This document shows positions 9,733-29,965 of a stretch of 35,475 bases of DNA, in pieces (position 1 is the first letter of the stretch; the number at the start of each line of letters is the position of its first letter). Origin of the DNA: a virus. Under the pieces are notes generated by a model. The model had not been told where the DNA came from. It saw nothing but the letters and a program-made list of their open reading frames with translations, and ran no database searches. Where the stretch lies: the IMG/VR virus record IMGVR_UViG_3300013115_000515, positions 1 to 35,475 of that record. One strand, written 5' to 3'. Both the position numbers and the translations under genes were made by a program.

Positions 9733-9736
9733 AGCG

Positions 9737-9773
9737 GCGCGCGGGGGCCGCCTAGGAAACCGCCCCCACGCGC
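9737..9773 (+). terminator. Imperfect hairpin between transposase and ATPase genes
   Basis: GCGCGCGGGGGC (9737-9748) pairs with GCCCCCACGCGC (9762-9773) with one mismatch and a 13-base loop. There is no T-run, so it is unlikely to be a full terminator. It may trim or stabilise the message and so set the A:B ratio. The rest of the gap to the next gene holds the AGGAG ribosome-binding site at about 9798. Confidence 0.4.
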
Positions 9774-9811
9774 CTGTCCCACTGAGTGAGTGAAACAGGA
9801 GAACCGGTAGC

Positions 9812-10943: not shown

Positions 10944-11657
10944 ATGGGCACACCTGCGAACAATTATGCGCACCCGGCGCGGTTCGATCGGGCCACCCAG
11001 CACCGGCGGGCGATGCTCGCCAAGATCAACATCGGCCGTCAGCAAATCGGGATGGTCGAGGACGACTATCGCCAGGTGCTGTTCGAAGAGACCGGCAAGA
11101 TGAGCTTGAAGGAGTGCTCCGACGCGCAGCTCGACGCGATGGTGGGACGCCTGAAACAGCTCGGCTTCAAGCCGATCCCGAAGGCCGGCGGCCGAGGCGT
11201 CGCGCAGCATCCGATGGCGCGCAAGGCGCGGGCGCTGTGGATCTCGCTCCACCATCTCGGCGCCGTGAAAAACCCTTCGGAGGAGGCTCTTGAAGCTTTC
11301 GCCAAACGGCAGATCGGATGCGAGAAGCTGATCTGGGCGCGGCAGTCCGATGCGTACCGGCTGATCGAGGCGCTCAAGGCGATGGCGAAACGTCATGGGT
11401 GGCTGCAGACGGACCCGACCAACGGACGCAAGCTCACCCCGCTGCAGCTCCAGATGCATCTGTGCGAGGTTATCCTGGCCAAGCTGCGGGAGGCGGGCGT
11501 CGCTGATCCGAACTGGACGCTCAACCAGGCGGCGTTCCGTCTCTGCGGCGTCGAGCTCGGCGCGGACGGCCCGATGTCGATCGAGAGCTATGCGCAACTT
11601 GCGGCCGCACTGGGCAAGTCGCTGCGGGACCACGCGCCGCAGGAGGTGGCATCGTGA
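10944..11657 (+). CDS. gemA: GemA (Mu gp16-like, DUF1018) protein
   Basis: A 237-residue protein. The opening motif RAMLAKINIGRQQIGMVEDDYRQ (quoted in part) and the following YRQVLFEETGKMSLKECSDA and LDAMVGRLKQLGFKP segments are the hallmark of the DUF1018/GemA family found at the end of the early region in Mu-like phages. In Mu, GemA changes host gene expression and DNA supercoiling and helps host functions support phage growth; the mechanism is not well defined. The second half (SLHHLGAVKNPSEEALEAF, then AYRLIEALKAMAKRHG) is also typical. Starts 2 bases after the previous stop and overlaps the next gene by 4 bases. Confidence 0.9.
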   Translation: MGTPANNYAHPARFDRATQHRRAMLAKINIGRQQIGMVEDDYRQVLFEETGKMSLKECSDAQLDAMVGRLKQLGFKPIPKAGGRGVAQHPMARKARALWISLHHLGAVKNPSEEALEAFAKRQIGCEKLIWARQSDAYRLIEALKAMAKRHGWLQTDPTNGRKLTPLQLQMHLCEVILAKLREAGVADPNWTLNQAAFRLCGVELGADGPMSIESYAQLAAALGKSLRDHAPQEVAS

Positions 11658-11890: not shown

Positions 11891-12159
11891 GCGCGGGTCC
11901 CCACGTTTCAGATCGCGCGCTTGTGCGGTTTCTCGATCGCGGGGGCGGCTTTGATGTCGAGACGCTGCGGGCCCGGATCGCCGCCTCGCTCGCCCGGGCG
12001 CATGACGCCGCCCGAATCGTCAGCGTCAGCGATTACTTGGTGACCGTCGACGGCATGACGTTCGTCGTTCGCGGCGAGACTGTGACAACCGTCCTGGAGG
12101 ATGCGCAGCCGGGACAGAAGGCGCGTGCTTTGGCGCGAGGCGGACATGAGCCAGCCTGA
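11887..12159 (+). CDS. Unknown small protein, TTG start
   Basis: A 90-residue protein from TTG 11887, which overlaps the previous stop (TTGA) and follows a GGGAGGGAG ribosome-binding site. Residues 1-40 look helical (DRALVRFLDRGGGFDVETLRA cut short here), and residues 50-75 form a likely beta hairpin (DYLVTVDGMTFVVRGETVTTV). No motif identifies a family. It overlaps the Mor/C-like gene by 14 bases. Confidence 0.6.
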   Translation: MSAGPHVSDRALVRFLDRGGGFDVETLRARIAASLARAHDAARIVSVSDYLVTVDGMTFVVRGETVTTVLEDAQPGQKARALARGGHEPA

Positions 12160-12553
12160 GCGAACCCCACCCGATCTCCCCGGCGTGCTCGCCCAAATCG
12201 CCAACGTTGCCGGCGAAGAGGCTGCTGTGGCGATCGCGGAGGCCGTGGGCGGCACACAGGTCTATATCCCGCCAGTACCCGACGCCGACCATTGGATGAG
12301 CCGCCTCGTCGGGCACAAGGCGGCGCTGGCGATCGCCGATCGGCTCACCTTGGGCGTCGGCGGCATTCGCCTGGACATGCCGTCCGGGCCGAGCGGCTAT
12401 GCGGCCAAGACGCGGCAGAAGGTGGACCGCATGATTGCGGCCGGCCGGAGCGAGCGTGACATTGCGCTGGCCACCGGATACACGGGGCGCGGCGTGCGCA
12501 AGAGGCGGCGACTGTCCCGCGAGCGCGATGCACGGCAACCCCGCCTGATCTGA
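12146..12553 (+). CDS. Mor/C-family transcription activator
   Basis: A 135-residue protein from ATG 12146. Residues 10-45 show the Mor/C dimerisation region with its signature GGTQVYIPP (35-43), a glycine-turn followed by a beta strand. Residues 100-120 (GRSERDIALATGYTGRGVRKR) form the helix-turn-helix. In Mu, Mor activates the middle promoter and C activates the late promoters; both belong to this family and bind dyad sites just upstream of weak -10 boxes. Here only one such gene is found, and it lies immediately before the first late gene and the first late-promoter palindrome. It is the best candidate for the activator of all three palindrome-bearing promoters (inference). Confidence 0.85.
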   Translation: MSQPERTPPDLPGVLAQIANVAGEEAAVAIAEAVGGTQVYIPPVPDADHWMSRLVGHKAALAIADRLTLGVGGIRLDMPSGPSGYAAKTRQKVDRMIAAGRSERDIALATGYTGRGVRKRRRLSRERDARQPRLI

Positions 12554-12562
12554 TGACATCTC

Positions 12563-12612
12563 CGCCCCGGAACGCGTTCCGGGGCGAGTGGGCGGCCTTC
12601 GCGCCCCATTAC
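12563..12612 (+). promoter_or_regulatory. Late promoter candidate 1 (lysis/packaging operon)
   Basis: A perfect 24-bp palindrome (12563-12586) with the core CCCCGGAACGCGTTCCGGGG lies 10 bases after the activator gene. A -10-like CATTAC (12607-12612) starts about 32.5 bases after the centre. No good -35 box is present, as expected if an activator dimer on the palindrome replaces it. It precedes the endolysin gene. The same palindrome occurs at 20477 and 26550. Confidence 0.65.
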
Positions 12613-12620
12613 ACGGTCCC

Positions 12621-13268
12621 ATGGACCGGGAACAATCAGACAACGAACCTGAGATCGTAGTGCGCGGATCGCGCCGCTTCGTGCGCGCCTATGCCAAGCT
12701 GCTCGGGATCGAGGGATCGTTCGTCGACGATCCGGTCGATCGGGGCGGCGCGACCAAGTACGGCATCTCGCTCCGCTTCCTCGCCGCCGAGGGCGCATTC
12801 GACGAGAACGGCGACGGCTACGCCGACTACGACCTGGACATGGACGGCGACATCGATGGGCGCGATGTTCGCCTGATCACGATCGACCAGGCCGGCTACC
12901 TCTACCACCGGTTCTTCTGGACCGCGCTCGACTGCGAGAGCTTCCCCGAGCCGATCGGCGAAATGCTGTTCGACCAGGCCGTCAACGGCGGTGCCAAGGC
13001 GGCGCGCAAGCTGCTGCAGCGCGCGATCAACGCATGTCTGGCGCGCACCGGCTATTCCATGATCGAGGTCGACGCGAGGATCGGCCCCGAAACCCGGCGT
13101 GCTCTGGATAGAGTTCTGACGATCGATCGTCTCGGGGGTATGGAGGCTTTCGTCGAAGCCTTCCGCGAGGAGGTGCGCGACCGCTATCGTGCGATCGTCC
13201 GCAGGTATCCCGACCAGAAGCGCTTCCTGCGCGGTTGGCTCAACCGCGCAGACGAGCTCGGCCGATGA
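12621..13268 (+). CDS. Endolysin, glycosyl hydrolase 108 family
   Basis: A 215-residue lysozyme-like enzyme that should cut the glycan strands of peptidoglycan at the end of infection. The motif IEGSFVDDPVDRGGATKYGIS matches the GH108 family, in which the Glu of the EGG-type motif (Glu31 here) is catalytic. Residues about 90-215 form the helical C-terminal half. There is an acidic insertion at 61-82 with two EF-hand-like loops. There is no signal peptide or N-terminal anchor, so it needs a holin. The start is uncertain: no ribosome-binding site precedes ATG 12621, and if promoter 1 is right the transcript would begin within a few bases of it. GTG 12660 is an alternative that still keeps the whole domain. 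Confidence 0.88.
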   Translation: MDREQSDNEPEIVVRGSRRFVRAYAKLLGIEGSFVDDPVDRGGATKYGISLRFLAAEGAFDENGDGYADYDLDMDGDIDGRDVRLITIDQAGYLYHRFFWTALDCESFPEPIGEMLFDQAVNGGAKAARKLLQRAINACLARTGYSMIEVDARIGPETRRALDRVLTIDRLGGMEAFVEAFREEVRDRYRAIVRRYPDQKRFLRGWLNRADELGR

Positions 13269-20217: not shown

Positions 20218-20337
20218 TCGAATGGCGCCGCAGATCGCCTGTAAGGGCCGTGGAGCCGTTATAGGCCCGGTTCCAGCGGCCATGGACCCGAACTCGCTTC
20301 TTAGCCCCTCTCAAATCGCTTCCTGAGGCAATTCGAC

Positions 20338-20364
20338 CGGCCCGCTTCCCCTGGAGGCGGGCCG
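20338..20364 (+). terminator. Terminator-like hairpin after prohead protease
   Basis: CGGCCCGC (20338-20345) and GCGGGCCG (20357-20364) are perfect reverse complements with an 11-base loop, followed by TTTCGGTT. The hairpin lies in the 342-base gap between protease and capsid genes and would end the first late transcript before the second late promoter. Confidence 0.6.
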
Positions 20365-20476
20365 TTTCGGTTGCCATCGGCGCGCCCGCTGGGTTAGACG
20401 CCTGACATCGCATCGGCGCGGCCGTGCGATCCAGACGGGTTCGCTGGCCTGAAATCCTGCATTCCCAGATCACGAT

Positions 20477-20526
20477 GCCCCGGAACGCGTTCCGGGGCGC
20501 GGCACGTTGCGCGTCACCTCCATACG
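20477..20526 (+). promoter_or_regulatory. Late promoter candidate 2 (capsid operon)
   Basis: A perfect 22-bp palindrome with the core CCCCGGAACGCGTTCCGGGG occupies 20477-20498, and a -10-like CATACG starts at 20521, 33.5 bases after the palindrome centre. Transcription would start near 20533, giving a leader of about 27 bases before the capsid ATG at 20560. It shares palindrome and spacing with the sites at 12563 and 26550. Confidence 0.68.
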
Positions 20527-20559
20527 GCGTCGAGATTAGCGACCCAATGGAGACACGGG

Positions 20560-21867
20560 ATGAGCATCAAGAATTTGACGCTGAAGGAAGCGCGCGAAAA
20601 GCTCGGCGCAAAGCAGGACGAGCTGGGCAAGATCTTCGAAGAGGCGAAGAGCGACGAGGGCTACGACTTCCGCAAGGTGAAATGCCTGGGTGAAGGCCTG
20701 GACTCGATCGGCGTCGCCGAAAAGGTCAAGGCCCTCAACAGCGAGGCCGACGAGCTGGCCGAACATGCGGAGACGCTCGAAGCTGCCGAATACGCGGCCA
20801 AGGGCTACAACCAGCGCGAGAAGGGCATGCGGCGCTTCCCACTGCCGGGCAGCGGTGACGATCGCGGCGGTTATCAGCCGATTAAGTCGCTCGGCGAGAC
20901 GGTCGCCGGGGAGAAGTCGTTCAAGGACTGGGCCGAGAAGGGCGCCGGCGGCGGCATTTCCTTCAGCTATGACGAAATGTGGCCGAGCGACATGCTCGCC
21001 AAGGGCGCCCAGTTCGACACGCTCGGCAGCAAGGCACTGATGAGCCGCACCGCCGGCTACGCGCCGGAGAGCATCCGGCAGCCCGGTTTCGTCGAAGCGG
21101 CCACCCGGCCGATTCAGATGCTCGACATCATTCCGATGTTCCGCACGGGGCAGGCGGCGATCAAGTACATGGAGGAAACCACCCGCGCCCATGCGGCTGC
21201 GGCCAGGGCGGAAGGTGCTGCCTTCGCCGAAAGCGAGTTCGCCTTCACCGAGAAGAGCACGCCGGTCGAGAAGATTACCGACAGCGTGCCCGTCACGGAC
21301 GAGCAGCTCGAGGACGTGCCGATGATGGAGGGCTACATCGATAGCCGTCTCACCTTCGGCCTGCGCCAGAAGCTCGATAGTCAGAGCCTGATCGGCGACG
21401 GCCTGGCTCCGAACCTGCGGGGCCTGAAGAACGTCGCGGGTATCCAGACCCAACTGAAGGGCGCCGATCCGACAATGGACGCCTTCTTCAAGTCCATGAC
21501 GAAGATCCGGCTCGTCGGCCGTGCGATCCCGACCCACCACATCATGCACCCGCTCGACTGGCAGGATATCCGTCTCACACGAACCGCGGACGGGATCTAT
21601 ATCTTCGGCAGCCCGACCGAAGCCGGGCCGGAGCGTCTGTGGGGTCTCCCTGTGGTGCAACAGGATGCCGATGCTCAGGGTGCGGGCTACACCGGATCGT
21701 TCCAGCCCCAGTGGGTCAGCCTGTTCGAAAAGAAGGGCGTCGACATCCAGATCGGCTTCGTCGGCACCCAGTTCGCCGAAGGCAAGCGCACCGTTCGGGG
21801 TGATACCCGTTTCGCGCTGGCATGGTTCCGGCCGGCCGCCTTCTGCGAGGTCAATCTGCTCGGCTGA
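20560..21867 (+). CDS. Major capsid protein, HK97 fold
   Basis: A 435-residue protein. Residues about 1-100 are a charged helical region (LKEAREKLGAKQDELGKIFE) that acts as the built-in scaffold (delta domain) in this family and is normally removed by the prohead protease. The body (about 115-435) carries family features such as ESIRQPGFVEAATRPIQMLDI near the N-arm, YMEETTRAHAAAARAEG, DEQLEDVPMMEGYIDSRL and the C-terminal RFALAWFRPAAFCEV. It is the first gene after late promoter 2 and is followed by two hairpins, which suits a strongly expressed structural gene. Confidence 0.93.
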   Translation: MSIKNLTLKEAREKLGAKQDELGKIFEEAKSDEGYDFRKVKCLGEGLDSIGVAEKVKALNSEADELAEHAETLEAAEYAAKGYNQREKGMRRFPLPGSGDDRGGYQPIKSLGETVAGEKSFKDWAEKGAGGGISFSYDEMWPSDMLAKGAQFDTLGSKALMSRTAGYAPESIRQPGFVEAATRPIQMLDIIPMFRTGQAAIKYMEETTRAHAAAARAEGAAFAESEFAFTEKSTPVEKITDSVPVTDEQLEDVPMMEGYIDSRLTFGLRQKLDSQSLIGDGLAPNLRGLKNVAGIQTQLKGADPTMDAFFKSMTKIRLVGRAIPTHHIMHPLDWQDIRLTRTADGIYIFGSPTEAGPERLWGLPVVQQDADAQGAGYTGSFQPQWVSLFEKKGVDIQIGFVGTQFAEGKRTVRGDTRFALAWFRPAAFCEVNLLG

Positions 21868-21873
21868 TCTCCG

Positions 21874-21901
21874 CCGGGGCCGGCGTGATCGTCGGCCCCG
21901 G
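21874..21901 (+). terminator. Hairpin 1 after the capsid gene
   Basis: CCGGGGCCG (21874-21882) pairs perfectly with CGGCCCCGG (21893-21901) around a 10-base loop, starting 7 bases after the capsid stop. There is no T-run. Together with the second hairpin it probably lowers read-through or protects the capsid message's 3' end. Confidence 0.5.
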
Positions 21902-21909
21902 TTCCTCCG

Positions 21910-21937
21910 AAAGGCGCGGCCTGCGCGCCGCGCCTTT
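21910..21937 (+). terminator. Hairpin 2 after the capsid gene
   Basis: AAAGGCGCGGC (21910-21920) pairs perfectly with GCCGCGCCTTT (21927-21937) around the loop CTGCGC. The 3' arm ends in three T's and is followed by CCGACG, so termination would be partial at most. The next gene's AGGAGAG ribosome-binding site begins about 10 bases later. Confidence 0.5.
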
Positions 21938-21960
21938 CCGACGAGCCAGGAGAGCAGACG

Positions 21961-22224
21961 ATGGGAACGATTTCCGGATTTTCGAAAGCGGTCGGCTGCG
22001 CGCTGATCCCCGGCGGGGCGATCGGCGAGCACACAGTGCCCGGCAGCCTGGCCGATGGCGACACGCTGCTGTCGGTCGAGCACATCACCGATGCCGAGCC
22101 GCCCACCCGCGTCGATCGTACCGACGAATTCGCGATCGTGGCCGGCAAGGCGAACACGATCGAGAACACGACCACGGACACGACGGGCGGCTACCTGCAC
22201 GTCCTGTGGGCGAAGGCGCAGTAA
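21961..22224 (+). CDS. Small probable virion protein after capsid gene
   Basis: An 87-residue protein with a clear AGGAGAG ribosome-binding site. It is rich in Thr, Asp and Gly, with no Cys-rich, coiled-coil or membrane feature besides one Cys; beta structure is likely (DTLLSVEHITDAEPPT, then EFAIVAGKANTIE). In many phages a small beta-rich decoration or head-stabilising protein is encoded directly next to the capsid gene. That is a positional inference; I do not recognise the family. Confidence 0.65.
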   Translation: MGTISGFSKAVGCALIPGGAIGEHTVPGSLADGDTLLSVEHITDAEPPTRVDRTDEFAIVAGKANTIENTTTDTTGGYLHVLWAKAQ

Positions 22225-22239
22225 CCGAGGAGACGAACG

Positions 22240-22725
22240 ATGAAGTGCACCCAGAGGCTCTATCTGACGGCCGACCGGAAGCGGGTCGTGCCGCAGGGCC
22301 ATAAGGCTGCTGCAACGCTTTACGCATCGCCTGGCGACGAAATTCCGAACAGCGCGGCCGAGATGTTCGGCCTGGTCGACGGCGCACTGCCCGAGAAGAA
22401 GGGCGGCAAGGGCAAGCCCGCGCCGGCGAACAAGGAAAAGCAGGCCGGATCGGACAAGCAGAAGGATGCCGGCGGCGACAAGGGCGACGGTGGGAAGCCG
22501 GCCGCTCCGGCCAAAGTATCGCTTACCGATGTCGCAGGCATTGGCGCGGCCACCGCGAAAACCCTGACAGCGGTCGGGATCGATACCGTCGAGAAGCTGG
22601 CCGCTCTCGACCCCGCAGCGCCGCCCGAGGTCACCGGCCTGTCGCCGGCGTTCTCTTGGTCGGCGGTGGTCGAAGCCGCCAAGGCGCGGGTGCCCGAAGC
22701 CGCAGCTGAAGCGCAGGCGAGCTAA
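22240..22725 (+). CDS. Helix-hairpin-helix protein in the head module
   Basis: A 161-residue protein with a GAGGAGA ribosome-binding site. The first 50 residues form a small folded part (LYLTADRKRVVPQGHKAAAT), residues about 50-90 are a Lys/Gly/Pro/Ala-rich disordered linker, and residues about 93-125 contain a helix-hairpin-helix (LTDVAGIGAATAKTLTAVGI), a fold that binds DNA backbone without sequence preference. It may be a virion protein that contacts packaged DNA near the head-tail connector, which is inference from position and motif. Confidence 0.7.
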   Translation: MKCTQRLYLTADRKRVVPQGHKAAATLYASPGDEIPNSAAEMFGLVDGALPEKKGGKGKPAPANKEKQAGSDKQKDAGGDKGDGGKPAAPAKVSLTDVAGIGAATAKTLTAVGIDTVEKLAALDPAAPPEVTGLSPAFSWSAVVEAAKARVPEAAAEAQAS

Positions 22726-22726
22726 G

Positions 22727-23293
22727 ATGCCGCTGCTCGACCGGATCAAGGAACGCACCGGTACGGATCTATCCGATGCTGAGCTGCAGGCGATGATCGA
22801 CGCGATCGCCGCCGAGCTCGACGCGCGCCTTGGTCCGGCCGGGCCGCTTACGGTCGAGCTCGGCGACCCGACCGATCCGCATTCGCGGAACCGGCGGACG
22901 CTGCGGCTCGATCGCCCGGCCGACACGGCCCAGGCGATCGACATCGTCGAGCTCGATCCAGCCAACGTCGGCGATCCGGCGAGCGAGGTCCAGCTCGCCG
23001 CCGGCGACTATCGCGTGCTGCATGGCGGGCGGACGCTGCAGCGGATGCTGGGCGGGCCGAACGGGCGGACGTTCTGGGCGCCGCTCGTGCGCGTCACCTA
23101 CTCGCCGATCGTCAACCAGGCGGCGCGGGACGAAGCGACGATCAAGCTGATCCAGCTCGATCTCTCCTATCGCGGCGGGCTGAAGAGCGAGCGTGCCGGC
23201 GATTACCAGTTCACGCTCTCGGGCGATCCCCAGGTCGACCGCGAGAACATCATCGCAAGCATCGAGCCGAGCGGCGGGATGGTGATGGCATGA
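22727..23293 (+). CDS. Head-tail connector (adaptor) protein
   Basis: A 188-residue protein starting 2 bases after the previous stop. The opening helices RIKERTGTDLSDAELQAMID, then AIAAELDARLG, have the pattern of gp6/gp15-type head-tail adaptors that form a ring under the portal. The remainder is beta-rich and longer than usual. Assignment rests on the N-terminal pattern and on its place between capsid and tail-completion genes. Confidence 0.6.
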   Translation: MPLLDRIKERTGTDLSDAELQAMIDAIAAELDARLGPAGPLTVELGDPTDPHSRNRRTLRLDRPADTAQAIDIVELDPANVGDPASEVQLAAGDYRVLHGGRTLQRMLGGPNGRTFWAPLVRVTYSPIVNQAARDEATIKLIQLDLSYRGGLKSERAGDYQFTLSGDPQVDRENIIASIEPSGGMVMA

Positions 23294-23514
23294 GGGGGTA
23301 TTTGCATGCCGTGGCCTCGTTGGCAGCCGTATCTTTCGGTGCCGGCTTTGACGATCGCGTGGTTTCGCGTCCGGTCGCGCGCCGGCGCGGACCGAACTCG
23401 GCGATGTTCGACATCTGCAGCGGCACCACGAAGCTGTTGCCCGTGCCGTCAAAGGCGCTGTCTAAGCGCCGCCGGCGCCGGCTGCGCGGCAAGGCGAAGG
23501 GAGCTCGTCGATGA
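23290..23514 (+). CDS. Small very basic protein of unknown function
   Basis: A 74-residue protein whose ATG overlaps the previous stop. The C-terminal 20 residues are highly basic (SKRRRRRLRGKAKGARR), and the N-terminus is mildly hydrophobic (LHAVASLAAVSFGAG). It could bind nucleic acid or phosphate. The gene overlaps the next by 4 bases. No family is recognised, and the composition also leaves room for it being a weakly conserved filler gene. Confidence 0.5.
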   Translation: MRGYLHAVASLAAVSFGAGFDDRVVSRPVARRRGPNSAMFDICSGTTKLLPVPSKALSKRRRRRLRGKAKGARR

Positions 23515-24179
23515 TCGACAAGTCTCTCCTCGCCAAGATCCGCAAGTGCTTCGCCCTGGCGAGCAGCTCTAACGAGCACGAAGCCGCGAACGCGCTGGCT
23601 AAAGCGCGCGCGCTAATGGACAGGCACGGCCTCGACGAGGCGCAGCTCGCCATGGCGGAAATTGCCGAGGCGACCGCGCGCGCCTCGCGGACGATCAAGC
23701 CGCCCAAGTGGGAGAACTTCCTGTGCTTCGCGGTGCGCCGCGCTCTGGGCGTCACGGCGTTCATCGATGCTGGCGGTGATCGTACCTATGTCGGGCGCGG
23801 GCCTGCGCCCGAGATCGCCGCCTATGCCTTCGCGGTCCTATTCCGCCGGCTGAAGGCCGCGCGGAAGGAATACATCACCAGCCACCTTCGTCGCTGCCGA
23901 CCCGGCCGCAAGCGCCAGCGCGCCGACATTTTCTGCGAGGCATGGTCCATGGCGGTCTTCTCGAAGATCGCTGCGCTGATGCCGGAGCAGGAAGAGGATG
24001 AACTGGTCGGCCGCTATCTCGCGGAGCATTATCCGGGGCTCGTCGAAGTCAATGCACGATCGGCGGCGATGAAGGGGCGCGGGGTTTGGGACGACTGGTC
24101 CCGTGGTCACCGCGCCGGCAGGGATGTCGATCTGCATTCCGGGGTAGGCGGCGCGCAAGCTCCGCTGGCGATCGCATGA
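23511..24179 (+). CDS. DUF2786-domain protein
   Basis: A 222-residue protein. Residues 6-45 (LLAKIRKCFALASSSNEHEA, then ANALAKARALMDRHGLD) match DUF2786, a short helical domain often found at the N-terminus of phage and bacterial proteins. The middle part (residues about 70-170) is helical and basic, with FEAWSMAVFSKIAALMP-like segments typical of the region that follows DUF2786. No catalytic motif is visible. It is unusual inside a head-tail module and is discussed as an insertion. Function unknown. Confidence 0.75.
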   Translation: MIDKSLLAKIRKCFALASSSNEHEAANALAKARALMDRHGLDEAQLAMAEIAEATARASRTIKPPKWENFLCFAVRRALGVTAFIDAGGDRTYVGRGPAPEIAAYAFAVLFRRLKAARKEYITSHLRRCRPGRKRQRADIFCEAWSMAVFSKIAALMPEQEEDELVGRYLAEHYPGLVEVNARSAAMKGRGVWDDWSRGHRAGRDVDLHSGVGGAQAPLAIA

Positions 24180-24394
24180 GCTGGGTTGCTCCCATCGTCT
24201 GGCTCGTCGTTGCCGCGCTGGTCTTCCTGCTCACGCGGGAGATGATGAATGTCGGGGCGCGATATCGCACGCCGGCGGCGATCGTGGCCGGCGCGCTATG
24301 GCCGCTGTGGACGGTCATGTTCGCCGCATTCCTGCTGGCGGATCTGATCGAATGGATCGTGCGCTCGATCGTGCGGCGCCTGGAGCGGCTATGA
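24176..24394 (+). CDS. Small two-helix membrane protein
   Basis: A 72-residue protein; ATG 24176 overlaps the DUF2786 gene stop. Hydrophobic segments at about residues 4-20 (VAPIVWLVVAALVFLL) and 38-58 (AAIVAGALWPLWTVMFAAFLL) suggest two membrane helices; the C-terminus is basic (RSIVRRLERL). Membrane proteins are not expected among connector genes, so it is likely an accessory gene. It could affect the host envelope late in infection. Confidence 0.65.
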   Translation: MSWVAPIVWLVVAALVFLLTREMMNVGARYRTPAAIVAGALWPLWTVMFAAFLLADLIEWIVRSIVRRLERL

Positions 24395-24738
24395 TCGCGG
24401 GGCGTCTCACGATGCGCGCGCAGATCGAGCGCAACCAGGTGGCGGGGACCGACAGTTGGGGCAACCCGCTGCCGGCCGAGTTCGTGGCGGTCGGCGAACC
24501 GTTGCCGTGCTTCGTGTGGTCCAACAGCTCTCGTGAAGTCGTCGACGGATCGAAGACGGCGATGATCGAGGACATGCGCGCAATGTTCGCGCTGGGCGCC
24601 GACGTGCGCGAGGCCGACGAAATCCCTCAGGTGACCGATCGCCAGGGCAACGTGCTCGTCCCCGGCCGGCTGAAGGTCGAAGGCCCGGTGCAGCGCAAGC
24701 ACACGCACCTCGAAGCTGCATTGCAGAGGATCGGGTGA
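24391..24738 (+). CDS. Head closure / head-tail joining protein
   Basis: A 115-residue protein from ATG 24391. The beginning LTMRAQIERNQVAGTDSWGN and the later PCFVWSNSSREVVDG and DRQGNVLVPGRLKVEG segments form the beta-barrel pattern of SPP1 gp16/HK97 gp9-type stoppers, in which a pattern of the type "r.qi......D.wGn" is common. It would seal the head and provide the tail docking surface. Both ends overlap the neighbouring genes. Confidence 0.65.
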   Translation: MIAGRLTMRAQIERNQVAGTDSWGNPLPAEFVAVGEPLPCFVWSNSSREVVDGSKTAMIEDMRAMFALGADVREADEIPQVTDRQGNVLVPGRLKVEGPVQRKHTHLEAALQRIG

Positions 24739-24974
24739 TGAGCCATCCCTGCCGCGTCCCCGATTGCCCTCGGCCTGCCAAGGACGGCCAGCTCATGTGC
24801 TGGCCCCATTGGCGACGAGTACCGCGCGCGCTCAATCGAGCGATCTTCGACACATTCCGCCACGGACCTCGGTCGGCGTATCTCGACAACGTGAGCGAGG
24901 CGGTGCGTGTGATCCAGGAGAAGGAGGCGGCCGAGCGCGAGCACAGGGACACGGCCTCGGAGGAGCACCGCTGA
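24738..24974 (+). CDS. Small zinc-binding protein between connector genes
   Basis: A 78-residue protein from ATG 24738 (shares a base with the previous stop). HPCRVPDCPRPAKDGQLMC (residues about 3-21) and the following WPHW supply Cys and His in zinc-finger spacing. The second half is a charged helix (EAVRVIQEKEAAEREHRDT). It is reminiscent of short phage proteins that bind zinc and DNA, but no family can be named. It separates two conserved connector genes and may be accessory. Confidence 0.6.
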   Translation: MSHPCRVPDCPRPAKDGQLMCWPHWRRVPRALNRAIFDTFRHGPRSAYLDNVSEAVRVIQEKEAAEREHRDTASEEHR

Positions 24975-25414
24975 TGTCTTCCGCTTCGCTCGTCTGGAAG
25001 GGAAAGGCTCTCACCGATCGCATGCGCCGGGCTCAGAAACTCGGCATCAATGCGACGATGTCGCAGTGCGTGAAGCACGCGAAGGCCAACCACGACTGGA
25101 AGAACCGCACCGGCGTGCTCGAGGGATCGCTGGGGATCGCAGAGTATGCCCGCGAGGACGCGGATGGCGTGGTCGGTCACTGGGGATCGCAGGACGTGAA
25201 GTACGCGCTGATCCACGAGCTCGGCGGGACGATCCAGGCGGTCAACGCCAAAGCGCTCGCCATCCCGATGCCGGACGGCGAGATGGCCTTCGTCAAGTCC
25301 GTGACGATTCCGGCGAGGCCTTACCTGCGGCCGGCGGCCGACGCGCAGTATCCGTCGCTCGTCGACAACATCCGCGCAGCGTTCATGAGGGACACCGGAG
25401 GCACCCGTGCCTGA
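24974..25414 (+). CDS. Tail completion protein, HK97 gp10-like
   Basis: A 146-residue protein from ATG 24974. KNRTGVLEGSLGI (residues about 42-54), then YALIHELGGTIQA and IPARPYLRPAAD, are the three typical blocks of the HK97 gp10 family, which acts at the head-tail interface. The sequence matches this pattern in order and spacing. Its end overlaps the next gene by 8 bases. Confidence 0.85.
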   Translation: MSSASLVWKGKALTDRMRRAQKLGINATMSQCVKHAKANHDWKNRTGVLEGSLGIAEYAREDADGVVGHWGSQDVKYALIHELGGTIQAVNAKALAIPMPDGEMAFVKSVTIPARPYLRPAADAQYPSLVDNIRAAFMRDTGGTRA

Positions 25415-25841
25415 GACGGTGGCCGACCCGATCGGCGCGGTGGTCGCGATGCTCAGCGCGCATGCGCCGCTCGCCTTTGCTCTTGGTGGGCGAGTGTTCG
25501 GCGGCGAGCTGCCGGCCACCGAAGCGGCGAGCATGCCGCGAAAGGCGCTCGTGGTTCGGCCGAGTGGCGGAGTTTCGTTGACCGGCAACACCTTTGCCGA
25601 GGTCGATACTCAAAGGATCGACCTATTCGCGTATGGCGAGACGCCGCGCGAAGCCGACTGGGTGATGAAGGTCGCCGGTCTCCATCTCAGGCGCATGCGG
25701 CCGGGCGTGTGGGCCGGCACCATGCTCCATTCCTGCAACAGCGCCAGCGGCGCCAGCTCCGGCCGGGAGCCCGGCACCGAATGGCCGCGCGAATTCCGTT
25801 CGTTCCAGCTCCTCCACGGACTGGCGGCGATCGGTGAGTGA
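25407..25841 (+). CDS. Tail terminator protein
   Basis: A 144-residue protein from GTG 25407. Order (after gp10-like, before the tail tube), size and the sequence pattern (DPIGAVVAMLSAHAPLAFAL at the start, then ALVVRPSGGVSL and QRIDLFAYGETPREADWVM) fit the gpU/DUF3168 type of protein that ends tail-tube growth and attaches it to the head. The family match is by pattern only. Confidence 0.7.
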   Translation: MPETVADPIGAVVAMLSAHAPLAFALGGRVFGGELPATEAASMPRKALVVRPSGGVSLTGNTFAEVDTQRIDLFAYGETPREADWVMKVAGLHLRRMRPGVWAGTMLHSCNSASGASSGREPGTEWPREFRSFQLLHGLAAIGE

Positions 25842-25868
25842 AGCAAACGATCAGAGGAGATCGCAATC

Positions 25869-26465
25869 ATGAAGCCTTATGAGATCATCGGCACGCCGCT
25901 CGTGCTTTACCTGGCGCCCGAGGGGACAGCCTTTCCCGCGCTGGGCGAGGAACCGGCAGAGCCCTGGGTAAAAGTCGGGACCAATGGTGCGGCCAACTAC
26001 GACGACACCGGCGTCACGGTCGAGCACGGCGAGACGATCGAGGTCGCGCGTCCCGCCGGCACGACGGGCGCGGTGAAGGCGTGGCGCACCGAGGAGAACC
26101 TGACGATCGGCGTAACGCTGTGGGACCTGACGCTGGAGCAGTATGCCAAGGCGCTCAACGATGCGACGGTGAACACGACCGCGGCCGCCGCCGGCACGCC
26201 GGGCACCAAGGCGATCGGCCTTTCGCAGGGTCTCGAAGTGCGTACTCATGCGCTGCTGGCACGCGGCGTTTCGCCCTATGGCCCGCAGTGGCAGGCGCAG
26301 TATGAGGTGCCGCGCTGCTATCAATCGGGCAATCCCAACCCCGCTTATCGCAAGGGCAATCCGGCCGGTCTGGCACTGCAGTTCGCCGCGCTCGAGGATC
26401 TCGAAGCGGCAAGCGAAGCAGAACGCTTCGGGCGCCTGATCGCGCAGCATCAGGCGGCGATCTGA
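25869..26465 (+). CDS. Major tail (tube) protein
   Basis: A 198-residue protein with a GAGGAG ribosome-binding site. It follows the terminator gene and precedes the assembly chaperone, the fixed place of the tube gene. Blocks such as EIIGTPLVLYLAPEGTAFP, DTGVTVEHGETIEV and a helical middle (EQYAKALNDATV) fit tube proteins of long non-contractile tails. A strong terminator follows it, which sets off the tube from the next transcription unit. Confidence 0.85.
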   Translation: MKPYEIIGTPLVLYLAPEGTAFPALGEEPAEPWVKVGTNGAANYDDTGVTVEHGETIEVARPAGTTGAVKAWRTEENLTIGVTLWDLTLEQYAKALNDATVNTTAAAAGTPGTKAIGLSQGLEVRTHALLARGVSPYGPQWQAQYEVPRCYQSGNPNPAYRKGNPAGLALQFAALEDLEAASEAERFGRLIAQHQAAI

Positions 26466-26491
26466 TTGCGGTCTGAGCCGTGATTGCTTAG

Positions 26492-26529
26492 GAAGGGCCG
26501 GCAGCGCGATCGCTCGCTGCCGGCCCTTC
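26492..26529 (+). terminator. Strong terminator after the tail tube gene
   Basis: A perfect 15-bp stem: the 5' arm at 26492-26506 (starts GAAGGGCC) pairs with the 3' arm at 26515-26529, with loop CGATCGCT, followed by TTCTATTC. This is the most convincing intrinsic terminator in the window and separates the capsid/tube transcript from the tail-assembly transcript starting at late promoter 3. Confidence 0.8.
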
Positions 26530-26549
26530 TTCTATTCAGCCCGCCCTTT

Positions 26550-26599
26550 GCCCCGGAACGCGTTCCGGGGCGAGCGGAGGCGCGAGCGACGGGCATAGC
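26550..26599 (+). promoter_or_regulatory. Late promoter candidate 3 (tail assembly operon)
   Basis: A 22-bp perfect palindrome (26550-26571, core CCCCGGAACGCGTTCCGGGG) lies just downstream of the terminator. A -10-like CATAGC starts at 26594, 33.5 bases after the palindrome centre. Transcription would start near 26606, followed by the AGGAG ribosome-binding site at about 26616 and the GTG start at 26627. It matches the sites before the endolysin and capsid genes. Confidence 0.68.
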
Positions 26600-26626
26600 G
26601 GCAGTCTATTCAGACAGGAGCCGCTC

Positions 26627-27112
26627 GTGGGCAAAGCCACAACTTCAGACGAACCGCTGCTCGACCTCGATACGCTGATCAAGCGTCCGACGATCCTGAT
26701 CGACCGCAAAAGGTACGACATTCTCTCACCGGAGGAGCTGTCGATCGAGGACAGCCATCGCTTCATGGTGTGGGGCAAGAGGATCGAGAAGCTCGACAGT
26801 CCGGATGCCGGCGAAGAGGCGGGGGCCGAGCTCGACCGTATTTTCGCCGAAGTGGCGACCAAGGTCATGATCGGCGTCCCCGACGACGTCCAGGCGAAGC
26901 TGACCGGCGCACACAAGCGGCAGGTGGCCGAGGTTTTTACCGGGCTGCTGCTGGGCCACAAGGCGGGCGCAGTAGCAGCGATAGCGAGCGCGATCGGCGC
27001 GCCGATGGGGTTCAAGCCGAACCTGTCGATTGGGGGGAGCTCATTCCCGAGCTCCAGCGCTTCTACGGAGGACAACCAGGCTGGTGGCTCCGAGAAGCCC
27101 CAGTCGCGTTAG
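26627..27112 (+). CDS. Tail assembly chaperone, short form (G-like)
   Basis: A 161-residue protein from GTG 26627, in the place between tail tube and tape measure genes where lambda has gpG. Such chaperones bind the tape measure protein during tail assembly and are absent from the virion. Residues 9-115 are helical and acidic (DLDTLIKRPTILIDRKRY, EELSIEDSHRFMVWGKRIEK). The short tail after about residue 137 (SSFPSSSASTEDNQAGG) is Ser/Gly-rich and looks like the out-of-frame end of the 0-frame. A longer form is probably made by frameshifting into the overlapping frame. Confidence 0.8.
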   Translation: MGKATTSDEPLLDLDTLIKRPTILIDRKRYDILSPEELSIEDSHRFMVWGKRIEKLDSPDAGEEAGAELDRIFAEVATKVMIGVPDDVQAKLTGAHKRQVAEVFTGLLLGHKAGAVAAIASAIGAPMGFKPNLSIGGSSFPSSSASTEDNQAGGSEKPQSR

Positions 27113-27372
27113 TCCGCGCTTATGTCGCCATGCTCCCTCGCCTCAGGGCCCAGGAGCGCCTCGACCGGATCGATGACGGCGCGCTTGCGTCTGGGTTCGT
27201 CAAGCAGGTCGACCGGCAGCGCGCGCTCGCAGCGCTCGAATGTGCGGCCAGAGGCGATGAACCCGAACCGCCCGCGAAGCCCAGCCCGGCCGAGCTTTCG
27301 GGCATGGGGATCGGCTTTGTCGTCGCCAACGATGTCTCACCGGTCGGTGAAGAGGGCATGAGCAATGGCTGA
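26627..27372 (+). CDS. Tail assembly chaperone, frameshifted long form (GT-like)
   Basis: The frame that follows the short form in the -1 direction is open past the short form's stop to 27372 and encodes protein-like sequence: VDWGELIPELQRFYGGQP, then LVRAYVAMLPRLRAQERLD and a C-terminal helical part. It has no start of its own in a credible position. A -1 slip at TGGGGGG (27031-27037) would join 137 residues of the short form to about 111 residues of this frame, giving about 248 residues. The same arrangement is conserved between G and GT in lambda-like tails. The long form should recruit the tail tube to the tape measure. Confidence 0.75.
27031..27037 (+). promoter_or_regulatory. Candidate -1 frameshift site, TGGGGGG
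   Basis: In the short-form frame the codons read ATT GGG GGG AGC. The run of six G allows both tRNAs to slip one base back, after which reading continues as GGG GAG CTC. The next bases hold an inverted GAGCTC pair (GAGCTCATTCCCGAGCTC, 27037-27054) which could form a small stem. The position is where the overlapping frame begins to look like protein. Confidence 0.6.
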
Positions 27373-29965
27373 GAGCCTGGGCGATGCCGTACTCGCGCTG
27401 AGCACGGACGATCGCGGATACACGCAAGGGATCGGGCAGGCCGAAGCGAAGGCGCAGACCCTCGGCCGCACGATGACGGCCGCGAGTGGAAGCGCGGACC
27501 GCTTGACGCGCGAGATCGGTCGCATCCGGGGCTCGGGCTCCGCCTTCGACGCGCATATCCAATCGGCGCGCGCCCATGTTGCGGCGCTCGACGATATGCG
27601 GGCCCGCTTCAATCCGGTGTTCGCCACCATCCGCCAGTACCAGGCGCGCCTGTCCGATATCCGGCAAGCGCATTCCCAAGGCGCGATCTCGACCAATGAG
27701 ATGACGGCCGCGATCGGGCGGGAGCGGCAGCAGGCTCTCTCCTCGATCGCCGCGCTCAAAGGCCGATCGACTGCACATGCCCAGGGGGCGAATTCGGCGC
27801 GGGCGCACAGTGCCGCTTATCAGCAGCTCGGCTTCCAGATGCAGGACGTGTTCCAGCAGGCGGCACTGGGCGTCAATCCGATGGTGATCGCGGCCCAACA
27901 GGGCGGGCAGATGGCGAGCGCGATCGCGCTCATGGGCCAGAACCAGAGCGGCACCCAGAGCCGCATGGTTCGCTTCGCGACCTTCCTCTCAGGTCCCTGG
28001 GGGGCAGCCGTATTCGGCGCAGCCACGATCATCGGTTTTCTGGTCCAAGGCATGCTCGAGGCCGATGACGCCGCGAAGTCGGCCGAAGATGCGAGCTTCG
28101 ACTTCGCGGACGGACTGGACGTGCTGACGCTCAGCGCAGAGCAGTCCAGCGCGGCGATGCGCCAGCTCGTGCAAGAGCTGAAGGCCGCGATCGCCACGCA
28201 GGGCGACTTCCTTCGAAGTTCGGCCCTTGTCGCGGATCAATCCGTGACAAGCCTGGAGACGCGCATCGCGGCCAACTCGAGCGAACTGCAAAGGCTCGAG
28301 CGGCGCCGCAACGGAGTCCTCGCGAACATCCTTCCCAGCTTCGCCGGACCGAGCGCCGCCGATCGCCGCCGGGAGAGCGAGCTGCGCGAACAATTGCAGG
28401 GCGACCGGCGCGCGCTCGCGCTGGCGCGGGAAGCGTCGGCCGCCGGCGCGATCGCGTTGGCGCAGCAAAGAGCGATCGAGGCGAACGACCCACTCGCAGC
28501 CGCGCGCGGAGAGTTCCAGCGCGGCGTGGCTGAGCTCAACAAGAGGCTCCAGTCGACCGTCGAGAATGCGGACGATCCGCTGTTCGCGTTCAACAATCCC
28601 GACCAGGTGATCACGCCGGAGGAGTATCAGCGGGAGTACACCCGGCTTCTGCAGCAGAGGGAGGCCACAGAGGAAGCGGTCCGGTCAAGTCGGCGCCGCA
28701 ACCGCCGTGGGCGGAGGGGGCGCTCGCCCGAGGAACTCGCAGCCATGCGGTACGAGCTCGATCTGGAGCACGAGATCGCTGTTGCCCAGGCACGCGGCGA
28801 CGCGGACACACTGCGCACGCTCGAGCGCGAACAGCAGCTGCGCGGCAGGGTCGAGCGCTACATGCGCGCGGGCCTCGATCTCGCGCAGGCCCGAACGGCG
28901 GCCGAGAAAGACATGCTCGAGCTGGATGAGGCACGTGCCGTTGCGCGCGAGCGGGCGCGTTCCGAGTTCGAAGACGAGATCGATCTGCAACTGGCCCAAG
29001 TGCGCGGCGACCATGAGCACATCAGGGCGCTGGAGGATCAGCAGTTCCTGAAGAAGCGCATCGTCGAGTACCAGGAGCTCGAGTACTCGCTGGCCGAGGC
29101 GCAGAAGCGGGCACAGCAGGATCTTCTCGACCTCGAAACGGCACGTACCGAACAAGCGGCGCGCCGCGCGGCCGACCAGCAACTGGCACACGAGGTCGAG
29201 CTTGCGCGGCTCCGGGGCGATCGGGAGGGCGCGATCCGGCTCGAGGAAGAAGCGCGCCGGCGCAATCGTGCAGAGCAATTGCGCCGAGACGGCATGAACG
29301 AAGCCGACGCGCAAGCGCAGGCCATGGGAGAATCGCTGGAGCGGGACCGAGCGGCGCAGGAGGGCATGTTCCGGGACACGTTCCGCGCTGGCGTCCGGGC
29401 AGCGCTGACCGGCGATTTAAAGGACTTCATCAGCCGCTTCTTCGAGGACGTCATGTCGCGCGCGGCAGACCGGTTCGCGGACGCGCTACTGGACGTGCTC
29501 TACAGCGAGCAGGGCGGCGGTGGCGGAGGGTTCGTCGGCAGTCTGCTGAGCATCGGCACCAGTCTCTTCGGCGGTGGCGGATCGAGCGCCGGCAGTGCGG
29601 CGCACGGCGTCGGAAACTCCGTGGGCGCGGGGTCGACCAACAGCCTCAAGGGCTTCGACACCGGCGGGTCGTTCAAGTTCCTCGGCATGCCGGGCGTCGA
29701 TCGCAACGTGCTGTCCATGAACGGCAACCCGATCGCACGGGTGAGCCGAGGCGAGATCGCGGAAATCCGCCGGCCGGGTGCGAACGAAGACGGTGGAGAG
29801 GGACGTGCGCTTCGCGTGGTGATCGAGGACGTCACCGGCATGTTCAAGGCGCGCGTCGAGGAGATCACGACACCTCTGGCCCAGCGTGAGGCCTCCTCCG
29901 CCGTGGCCAGTTACGACCGTGCGATGCCGGGGCGGTTTCAGAACGAAATGGCGCGGCGCGGGTGA
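27365..29965 (+). CDS. Tail tape measure protein
   Basis: An 866-residue protein that sets tail length and lines the tube. Residues about 155-190 (YQQLGFQMQDVFQQAALG, then NPMVIAAQQGGQMASAI) match the TMP_2/lambda gpH-type N-terminal region. A hydrophobic segment lies at about 209-230 (WGAAVFGAATIIGFLVQGM). Residues about 300-660 are long charged helices (many LERxxQLRGR-type repeats) expected of a rod. The C-terminus has a Gly/Ser-rich stretch (about 715-760) and ends in a compact domain. Starts in an 8-base overlap with the chaperone frame. At about 0.15 nm per residue, the usual tape-measure relation predicts a tail near 130 nm (rule of thumb, not measured). Confidence 0.92.
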   Translation: MAESLGDAVLALSTDDRGYTQGIGQAEAKAQTLGRTMTAASGSADRLTREIGRIRGSGSAFDAHIQSARAHVAALDDMRARFNPVFATIRQYQARLSDIRQAHSQGAISTNEMTAAIGRERQQALSSIAALKGRSTAHAQGANSARAHSAAYQQLGFQMQDVFQQAALGVNPMVIAAQQGGQMASAIALMGQNQSGTQSRMVRFATFLSGPWGAAVFGAATIIGFLVQGMLEADDAAKSAEDASFDFADGLDVLTLSAEQSSAAMRQLVQELKAAIATQGDFLRSSALVADQSVTSLETRIAANSSELQRLERRRNGVLANILPSFAGPSAADRRRESELREQLQGDRRALALAREASAAGAIALAQQRAIEANDPLAAARGEFQRGVAELNKRLQSTVENADDPLFAFNNPDQVITPEEYQREYTRLLQQREATEEAVRSSRRRNRRGRRGRSPEELAAMRYELDLEHEIAVAQARGDADTLRTLEREQQLRGRVERYMRAGLDLAQARTAAEKDMLELDEARAVARERARSEFEDEIDLQLAQVRGDHEHIRALEDQQFLKKRIVEYQELEYSLAEAQKRAQQDLLDLETARTEQAARRAADQQLAHEVELARLRGDREGAIRLEEEARRRNRAEQLRRDGMNEADAQAQAMGESLERDRAAQEGMFRDTFRAGVRAALTGDLKDFISRFFEDVMSRAADRFADALLDVLYSEQGGGGGGFVGSLLSIGTSLFGGGGSSAGSAAHGVGNSVGAGSTNSLKGFDTGGSFKFLGMPGVDRNVLSMNGNPIARVSRGEIAEIRRPGANEDGGEGRALRVVIEDVTGMFKARVEEITTPLAQREASSAVASYDRAMPGRFQNEMARRG

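Follow-up and report, generated by a model that had tools for sequence, protein, structure and literature searches.

In the Mu-like phage family studied here, the interval between the head-tail adaptor and stopper genes is a swappable cargo pocket, and a second pocket lies between the stopper and the gp10-like gene. The window, that is, the whole 35,475-nucleotide stretch that was analyzed (IMG/VR record IMGVR_UViG_3300013115_000515), comes from a Mu-like phage coding for MuA (DDE_2, 1.4e-45), the MuB C-terminal domain (4e-15), GemA (1.4e-32) and Mor (5.7e-6). We read the interval as a cargo pocket because its contents come and go between neck genes that remain unchanged, and the best overall interpretation, to which we give a probability of about 60%, is of a late, modular pocket that often carries counter-defence genes. 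The relevant features of the window are as follows.

20477..20498, unstranded: 22-nt palindrome starting 83 bp ahead of the capsid gene, proposed as the site where the late unit is activated (putative function)
20560..21867, + strand: major capsid protein (phrog_10, 3.8e-39), first gene past the palindrome
22727..23293, + strand: head-tail adaptor (phrog_442, 0.0041; 68% identity to the annotated Aussie and StopSmel adaptors), upstream border of pocket 1
23290..23514, + strand: basic peptide, 74 aa, hydrophobic N-terminus and Arg-rich C-terminus; similar peptides in the slot of 9 of 82 loci (window counted)
23511..24179, + strand: DUF2786+DUF7168 protein, 222 aa (Pfam 4.7e-16 and 3e-27; PHROG 421, 3.1e-55)
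24176..24394, + strand: two-helix membrane protein, 72 aa, two hydrophobic segments
24391..24738, + strand: stopper, head closure (phrog_7072, 0.0085; phrog_25, 0.013; 69-70% identity to the annotated Aussie and StopSmel stoppers), border between pockets 1 and 2
24738..24974, + strand: Cys/His (putative zinc) protein, 78 aa, pocket 2 (phrog_18063, 2.2e-9; Cys/His spacing)
24974..25414, + strand: gp10-like tail completion / Neck1 protein (phrog_26, 3.9e-7)
25407..25841, + strand: tail terminator (no family match; 44% identity to the annotated Aussie and StopSmel terminators)
25869..26465, + strand: major tail protein (52-53% identity to annotated major tail proteins), last gene ahead of the hairpin
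26490..26531, + strand: strong hairpin with a T-rich stretch behind it, where the unit likely terminates (RNA fold energy -36.2 kcal/mol, z-score -6.4)

An earlier note on this DNA held that the basic peptide, DUF2786, two-helix and Cys/His genes interrupt the order adaptor, stopper, gp10, terminator, and comparison with annotated relatives bears this out. In Aussie and StopSmel the annotated order is adaptor, stopper, morphogenesis protein, tail terminator and major tail protein, with one extra gene between adaptor and stopper in Aussie and none in StopSmel, so a conserved gene order is indeed broken by the window genes. In StopSmel the two neighbours, adaptor and stopper, share 1 nt; the cargo of the window thus sits between genes that lie side by side in relatives. 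The tight packing described in the same note is equally evident, with junctions of the cargo genes being 4-nt or 1-nt overlaps.

We then compared 82 non-redundant loci retained from 121 (separation rule: 97% identity, equal length); these are not independent, the Fisher tests given below ignore kinship, and many of the records may be fragments. Across them the adaptor-stopper interval spans -4 to 2294 bp, measuring at least 90 bp in 60 loci and less than 30 bp in 21. Genes in the pocket were called with our own codon-model script, which misses Arg-rich or short genes, such as the full basic genes and the two-helix gene of L040. Neck genes that are nearly identical can enclose different cargo: locus L041 matches L040 and L044 at 97% in adaptor DNA and 97-100% in the stopper, with an interval of 1121 versus 187 bp, and L103, with a 90% identical adaptor, has a third kind of content. 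The same gene families turn up repeatedly in the slot, and unrelated families replace one another there, including a D12 methyltransferase and a lipid desaturase, for neither of which do we know of a virion role. A Pfam scan of 71 of the 166 called cargo proteins matched 13 families with one to four members each, most of the cargo in this sample being without known function. On a tree of adaptor plus stopper for 81 loci (all but L104, whose adaptor is incomplete), the methyltransferase label changes 6 times against about 6.8 in shuffles, and DUF2786, present in the slot of eight loci, changes 8 times (at least 7 forced; 7.8 when shuffled), i.e. it is scattered over the neck-gene tree as if at random. 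Its absence from the slot in 74 of the 82 loci upholds the accessory status earlier assigned to the inserted genes; of the counter-scenario named alongside, that they occur in all relatives and are virion parts, the first half fails on the same count. GC content through the pocket is 0.656-0.678 in 500-bp windows against a record mean of 0.660, and a recent foreign origin, as judged by base composition, was rejected on this flat profile.

This turnover bears on two other explanations. A role of the cargo products as dispensable components of the virion or its assembly (decoration proteins, neck ornaments or chaperones tuning morphogenesis, for instance) is unlikely, given the patchy presence of DUF2786, the differing cargo under near-identical neck genes, the swapping of unrelated families that include enzymes, and the early position of DUF2786 in five other Mu-like phages examined. 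What this explanation has on its side is the location of the cargo among connector genes, its probably shared transcript and, in the accessible portion of a study of Pseudomonas aeruginosa phages, the mass-spectrometric detection in the virion of ORF h, an accessory head-module protein of PaMx73 (PMC4378225). Alternatively, the slot might be a recombination-prone spot gathering small passenger genes without selected function, as the high turnover and the prevalence of cargo without known function could indicate; this appears improbable in light of the recurrence of the same families and of dN/dS values of 0.09-0.21 for three DUF2786 pairs (0.21 for the window versus L050; stopper 0.24) and 0.17-0.33 for four pairs of the basic peptide family.

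Based on the palindrome before the capsid gene and the hairpin after the major tail gene, we suggest that a single late unit spans this region. The 18-nt core of the palindrome occurs in three exact copies in the window (12566, 20479 and 26552), with 0.09 expected at up to 3 mismatches. The capsid gene is preceded by a similar site, with at most 2 mismatches, in 24 of 75 loci (window counted) versus a 0.7% background, and none of the 82 pockets has one; in the remaining 51 of those 75 loci, among them Aussie, StopSmel and several DUF2786-bearing loci, no such site was found at that position. A consensus terminator scan did not list the hairpin at 26490-26531; over 20300-27400 it recovered no terminator-like site inside the pocket, and a weak match of 5 pairs at 22634-22648, in the gap between capsid gene and pocket, stands beside an average of 4.3 such matches in shuffles. 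Sigma-70 consensus patterns, the only ones covered, gave no promoter-like site in the same region. Moreover, in 58 of the 60 loci with an interval of at least 90 bp the stopper starts with an ATGA or GTGA overlapping a stop codon, as in translational coupling. Taken together, the pocket is very likely co-transcribed late with the capsid, neck and tail genes from a promoter region ahead of the capsid gene; the late co-expression claimed earlier thus holds up indirectly, through the boundaries of the unit and the lack of a promoter-like site within 20300-27400.

These data also speak to the possibility that the pocket genes are morons, for which one could cite their insertion between genes adjacent in relatives and the suitability as exclusion proteins of a peptide that looks exported and of a small membrane protein with two helices. 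We regard it as having a low probability, in view of the results of the promoter and terminator scans, a GC content like that of the flanks and the coupled stopper starts. The classical form of a moron was set aside, as neither a promoter nor a terminator of its own was found with consensus patterns.

The support for counter-defence, as part of the late modular pocket that we favor, comes from the cargo of relatives. The Acb2_Tad1 family (PF24729) exceeds the Pfam cut-off in 5 of 50 relatives' records: three of these genes lie in the pocket (Aussie gene 37, L017 and L134) and two end 40 and 25 bp before the adaptor. A further Acb2-like family, present at seven loci, did not reach the cut-off in any of the three members examined (26.4 bits at best, against 27), and of six Acb2 matches under the threshold, two are located elsewhere than in the pocket. 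D12 DNA methyltransferases occupy the slot neighbouring the adaptor-stopper slot, and Mu Gam occurs once in the latter (L122). Within the window, PF24729 had no match at E up to 0.01, PADLOC, mainly a defence library, yielded no family at E up to 1 for any of the four cargo proteins, and NCBIfam gave none over cut-off among eight proteins scanned, these four included. Hence, of the anti-defence role put forward in the earlier note, the part that concerns the slot is supported by the Acb2/Tad1 proteins, methyltransferases or Gam in or beside it in relatives, and the part that concerns the window's four genes is not. We consider it probable that the pocket is enriched in counter-defence genes and infer such a role for the window's own four; given likely immunity blockers in some relatives' slots, the unknown genes of the slot are good candidates for the same job.

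Both domains of the window's DUF2786/DUF7168 protein score above their curated cut-offs (58.9 and 95.4 bits versus 23.9 and 25.5 for PF10979 and PF23771), and it contains the single DUF7168 match in the whole record. Phage records matching it number 83, six of which were examined: the gene is early in the Mu-like phages JBD24, MuM16-2, Bise (directly after Gam), B23 (directly before GemA) and TJ1; the sixth, phiKM1, perhaps not Mu-like, does not enter this count. StopSmel, too, encodes a DUF2786/DUF7168 protein in the early region, so the family as a whole does not depend on being expressed late. The early genes are related to the window copy over most of the protein, but they lie in the early transposition region at 31-39% identity (tblastn), and the window copy falls into a distinct group of late-slot proteins. 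Slot copies cluster apart from early ones (100/99 with L051/L052 joined), and the eight of them stay together in both trees (95/95 and 92/93), the second of which was built without StopSmel, phiKM1 and L056 on account of the very long StopSmel branch in the first.

No PDB sequence relative of this protein was found. Its structure model has a pLDDT of 86.8, and Foldseek against solved structures returned nothing below E 0.001 for the whole model or the DUF7168 part alone, so a fold-based function was dropped. VIA-align placed unrelated chains (receptor, karyopherins; Z 5.0-5.3) at the top for the whole model, followed by an ATPase chain and KH domains at up to 4.8; for the DUF7168 part alone, KH domains head the list and are the commonest rows, with Z up to 4.8 and an rmsd of 5.1 over 84 residues. 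The GXXG loop is the KH domain motif, and inspection by eye found none in residues 51-125. In a viral structure library there were 29 matches below E 0.001, the named ones being DUF2786, DUF7168 or uncharacterised proteins, and in the accessible portions of the full-text literature we found no functional description of DUF2786, the mentions merely listing it. We put the chance that DUF2786 itself acts in counter-defence or host takeover a little short of even.

Among the other cargo, the basic peptide is the weakest gene, the codon model having scored only its last 36 codons. Two of 11 Arg/Lys-rich slot frames (L022 and L137) were removed by eye and the other nine aligned; the window copy is 44% identical to that of L012 over 70 codons, with a dN/dS of 0.33, and its BLASTP match to L103 has an E of just 0.034. 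The two-helix protein clusters with slot proteins of 17 of the 82 loci (window counted), plus L040 by eye, a grouping that may partly reflect hydrophobic composition; its family evolves loosely (dN/dS 0.56-0.63). The Cys/His protein, with a C-x4-C-x10-C-x2-H spacing and a Pfam zinc-finger match below cut-off, is a putative zinc binder. Neither of these last two matched relatives in the phage collection, and the alignments of the basic and two-helix families have no part conserved well enough for a profile scan. The earlier idea of a small system combining a DNA binder with a membrane protein did not survive: of the 8 DUF2786 loci, 3 also carry a two-helix gene (p=0.21), and a fixed two-part system was dropped. 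The basic and two-helix families, on the other hand, are found together in 6 of the 9 basic-bearing loci (Fisher p=0.002, kinship ignored). This might indicate lysis accessories, i.e. a cationic lysis peptide and a holin-like protein with DUF2786 as an unrelated passenger, which would also accommodate the net charges from +14 to +24 across the basic family (+16 in the window), its hydrophobic N-termini and the failure of lysis-region proteins scanned to match a holin family. Two-helix topology occurs in holins too, which adds to this case. Nonetheless, such a role seems quite unlikely, as a separate lysis region is present, in which the gene of a GH108 endolysin (12621-13268) precedes genes whose products show hydrophobic segments on visual inspection, and the basic and two-helix families were not found in 73 and 64 of the 82 loci, respectively.

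Returning to the late counter-defence pocket, we posit that it would be kept as a means of supplying counter-defence and host-takeover proteins just as virion proteins are made, which is when defences sensing the latter would fire. The DUF2786/DUF7168 protein might be the main cytoplasmic effector, binding nucleic acid or nucleotide, and the basic peptide, with its signal-like N-terminus and Arg-rich tail, could act with the two-helix protein at the envelope, e.g. in superinfection exclusion; the window's cargo genes would then be separate modules sharing a slot rather than a single fixed system. A bolder version, which we hold only tentatively and think rather doubtful, is that late-slot DUF2786/DUF7168 proteins are a new phage counter-defence family of nucleic-acid or nucleotide binders, built on a KH-like core and made while capsid and neck are being synthesised. 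In these Mu-like phages, mostly alphaproteobacterial, the neck pockets would be islands of counter-defence, and the rest of their cargo, exported Arg-rich peptides and two-helix proteins included, would block further defences. Swappable loci already holding known kinds of immune blockers offer a practical route to unknown ones; this slot is easily recognised by its conserved adaptor and stopper, and since it is empty in 21 of the 82 loci, matched phages with and without cargo exist. The widespread, unexplained DUF2786 family thereby becomes a testable counter-defence candidate, and the suggested timing rule has immune blockers accompany those virion proteins by which immunity is triggered.

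In the portions of the searched literature accessible to us we found no description of a cargo pocket among neck genes. The HK97 gp15 moron is a small membrane protein encoded among tail-region genes, and the window's two-helix gene resembles it by description alone, as a small membrane protein, but shows no promoter of its own. Acb2/Tad1 cyclic-nucleotide sponges (reviewed in PMC12043709) have counterparts in hairpin-domain proteins in the same pocket of relatives, with none in the window. The available sections of Cazares et al. 2014 (PMC4378225) describe Mu-like siphophages of P. aeruginosa with plasticity regions mainly in the left arm; anti-CRISPR genes are found in region G, and region H is flanked by the protease-scaffold and major head genes. 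Both cases have variable small genes at fixed places of a Mu-like genome, whereas in the window's lineage the slots lie inside the neck genes and Acb2/Tad1 is among relatives' cargo. The antiviral hotspots of P2-like and P4-like phages, as far as the accessible text of PMC9122126 covers them, likewise occupy fixed places in phage genomes and exchange cargo that is relevant to the conflict between phage and host; those hotspots carry anti-phage systems, whereas the recognisable cargo of the pocket described here is counter-defence-like and sits inside late structural genes.

We examined the whole 35,475-base virus record, which is a Mu-like transposable phage with the following early genes, endolysin and neck region:

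Features of the window (nucleotide positions)
7774-10774: MuA and MuB (MuA DDE_2, 1.4e-45; MuB C-terminal domain, 4e-15)
10944-11657: GemA
12125-12553: Mor-type activator
12621-13268: GH108 endolysin
22727-23293: adaptor
23290-23514: basic peptide
23511-24179: DUF2786/DUF7168 protein
24176-24394: two-helix protein
24391-24738: stopper
24738-24974: Cys/His protein
24974-25414: gp10-like protein

Beyond the endolysin come the genes for terminase, portal and capsid, then those for the neck and the tail. The earlier note had four accessory genes interrupting the neck genes, and this observation is confirmed: their placement is correct and the junctions are 4-nt or 1-nt overlaps. Of the four proteins, DUF2786/DUF7168 alone scores above a Pfam cut-off; the Cys/His protein has a match to a PHROG with no assigned function.

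We gathered 121 loci with adaptor and stopper genes, which were reduced to 82 (numbered with the prefix L) on removal of near-copies. The adaptor-stopper interval has a median of about 236 bp and extremes of -4 and 2294 bp; it is 90 bp or longer in 60 of the 82 loci, less than 30 bp in 21 and 79 bp in one. Between stopper and gp10, 38 of 81 loci have 90 bp or more. Based on these lengths, the genes of the window are a single case of a variable locus, and the slots number two. Named bacterial genomes supply 22 of the collected loci, one an Arenimonas assembly and the other 21 alphaproteobacterial, judging by their names. Close relatives differ in cargo: L041 shares 97% DNA identity with L040 and L044 in the adaptor and 97-100% in the stopper, and its 1121-bp slot holds a basic peptide, DUF2786 and a two-helix gene, against the two-helix gene alone in their 187-bp slots. 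L103, with an adaptor about 90% identical, has genes for a basic peptide, for a protein of 149 aa that matched nothing in Pfam, and for a lipid desaturase. The window's nearest relative on the neck tree, L012 (stopper 76% identical; its near-copy L011 set aside), has the basic peptide and two-helix gene and lacks DUF2786. The neck regions L040 and L044 are related copies in opposite orientation on one 53.7-kb contig, which therefore probably holds two prophages.

DUF2786 occurs inside the slot in 8 of the 82 loci, and the loci bearing it are scattered like random labels on the neck-gene tree: on an adaptor-plus-stopper tree of 81 loci its presence requires 8 changes, at least 7 of them forced, versus 7.8 in shuffles. 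The slot copies nevertheless cluster together on the DUF2786 tree, which was built twice (support 95/95 and 92/93); the group that also takes in the copies of L051 and L052 has a support of 100/99. The L051 neighborhood belongs to another Mu-like family and DUF2786 is again in a late place, flanked by a Mu-type portal gene and a Mu F-like head gene, with some small genes preceding it. The gene is early in all five other Mu-like phages examined:

Early places of DUF2786
Shewanella MuM16-2: between DUF3164 and gp16/Mor
Pseudomonas Bise: immediately 3' of Gam
B23: immediately before GemA
TJ1: after the transposase
JBD24: comparable place, the surrounding genes all annotated hypothetical in the stretch viewed

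Phage StopSmel (L145) is without a late DUF2786 and has a divergent early copy (8803-9504) between transposase B and GemA. At the position of this DUF2786/DUF7168 gene, phage Aussie (L146, 10184-11619) has two opposite-strand genes; as the contents before GemA thus differ, the early place is variable too. A family search recovered DUF7168 in 10 of the 75 relatives' records (some mutual near-copies), in nine inside the slot or immediately upstream of the stopper (L095 and L101 by coordinates only) and in one early (StopSmel); it was never found twice in one of these records, and the window has one copy. Three pairs gave a dN/dS of 0.09-0.21, with dS near saturation in two of them. The structure is predicted confidently (pLDDT 86.8; 91.0 for the DUF7168 part alone), and KH domains are the commonest among its weak fold matches.

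The basic family is found in 9 of 82 loci, its start overlapping the adaptor by 4 nt in five (the window, L012, L041, L094 and L103) and the gene lying further along the slot in four (L037, L125, L127 and L129). Its members have a net charge of +14 to +24 and hydrophobic, signal-peptide-like N-termini, as judged by hydropathy and eye. The two-helix group is found in 17 of 82 loci under permissive clustering, and in L040 by eye; it accompanies the basic gene in six of nine cases (p=0.002). DUF2786 co-occurs with the two-helix gene in three of eight loci and with the basic gene in two of eight (p=0.21 each), and the proposal of a two-part system formed by a DNA binder and a membrane protein is accordingly not supported.

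The window contains a perfect palindrome, 22 nt or longer, at three places (12563-12586, 20477-20498 and 26550-26571), preceding the endolysin, the capsid and the 26627 genes respectively; its 18-nt core has three exact occurrences versus 0.09 expected at up to three mismatches. Of 75 loci, 24 have a like site (up to two mismatches) 79-106 bp upstream of the capsid gene, against a background of 0.7%; it was not found there in the other 51, nor in any of the 82 pockets. The palindrome may be where the Mor-type activator binds. Hairpins lie upstream of the late unit (20338-20364, z -3.85) and downstream of the major tail gene (z -6.4). No sigma-70-like promoter was found by a scan of 20300-27400. 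Between the capsid gene and the pocket the scan gave a single terminator-like match, with 5 pairs, at 22634; 4.3 such matches were expected by chance in the scanned region. We infer that the cargo genes are expressed late, as the earlier note held.

We called 166 cargo proteins and scanned 71 against Pfam, matching 13 families, among them Acb2_Tad1_hairpin (3), D12 methyltransferase (4), lipid desaturase (3), DUF1643 (2) and Mu Gam (1). The D12-type cluster spans seven loci, always in the stopper-gp10 slot, and PADLOC returned methyltransferase models and PD-Lambda-5_B (4 members). The Acb2/Tad1 matches are Aussie gene 37 (8e-19), L134 (1.3e-18) and L017 (5.9e-10). Gene 37 (L001, 5035-5271), annotated as hypothetical, encodes a clear Acb2/Tad1 hairpin protein and lies between adaptor and stopper; Aussie is a sequenced Sinorhizobium phage. 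Searching 50 whole records gave 11 Acb2/Tad1 matches at E<=0.01; three of the five above the cut-off are in the pocket (Aussie placed by coordinates) and the remaining two, L093 and L107, end 40 and 25 bp upstream of the adaptor, while four of the six sub-threshold matches are in the pocket and two elsewhere. A cluster of 56-68 aa proteins occupies the adaptor-stopper slot in seven loci (L031, L035, L036, L065, L127, L129 and L137). The three members tested resemble Acb2/Tad1 below the cut-off of 27 bits, the best scoring 26.4, and the cluster is possibly a divergent sponge family.

Gam is an early gene in Mu. Matches to it occur in 10 of 50 records, and the L122 copy (4057-4587, 6.9e-13), a Mu Gam-like gene, is in the late adaptor-stopper slot. 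A membrane-protein cluster is also seen in the neck pockets (L037 7773-8297, L103 4474-5004, L119 3605-4132). Its L103 member has a lipid desaturase match (PF10520, 2.6e-38), which is strange cargo for a phage to carry.

The accessory status proposed for the window's genes is borne out. An anti-defence role gains support for the slot, through the cargo of relatives, and for the window's own four genes is still a hypothesis. On that view blockers would be produced alongside virion proteins, when defences sensing such proteins would fire. Three things seem to be new, our literature search having found no account of them: the location within the neck genes, the grouping of late-slot DUF2786 copies, and the link to Acb2/Tad1. 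The variable slots themselves have a known precedent in the Mu-like phages of P. aeruginosa, which have variable regions, one of them holding anti-CRISPR genes (PMC4378225).
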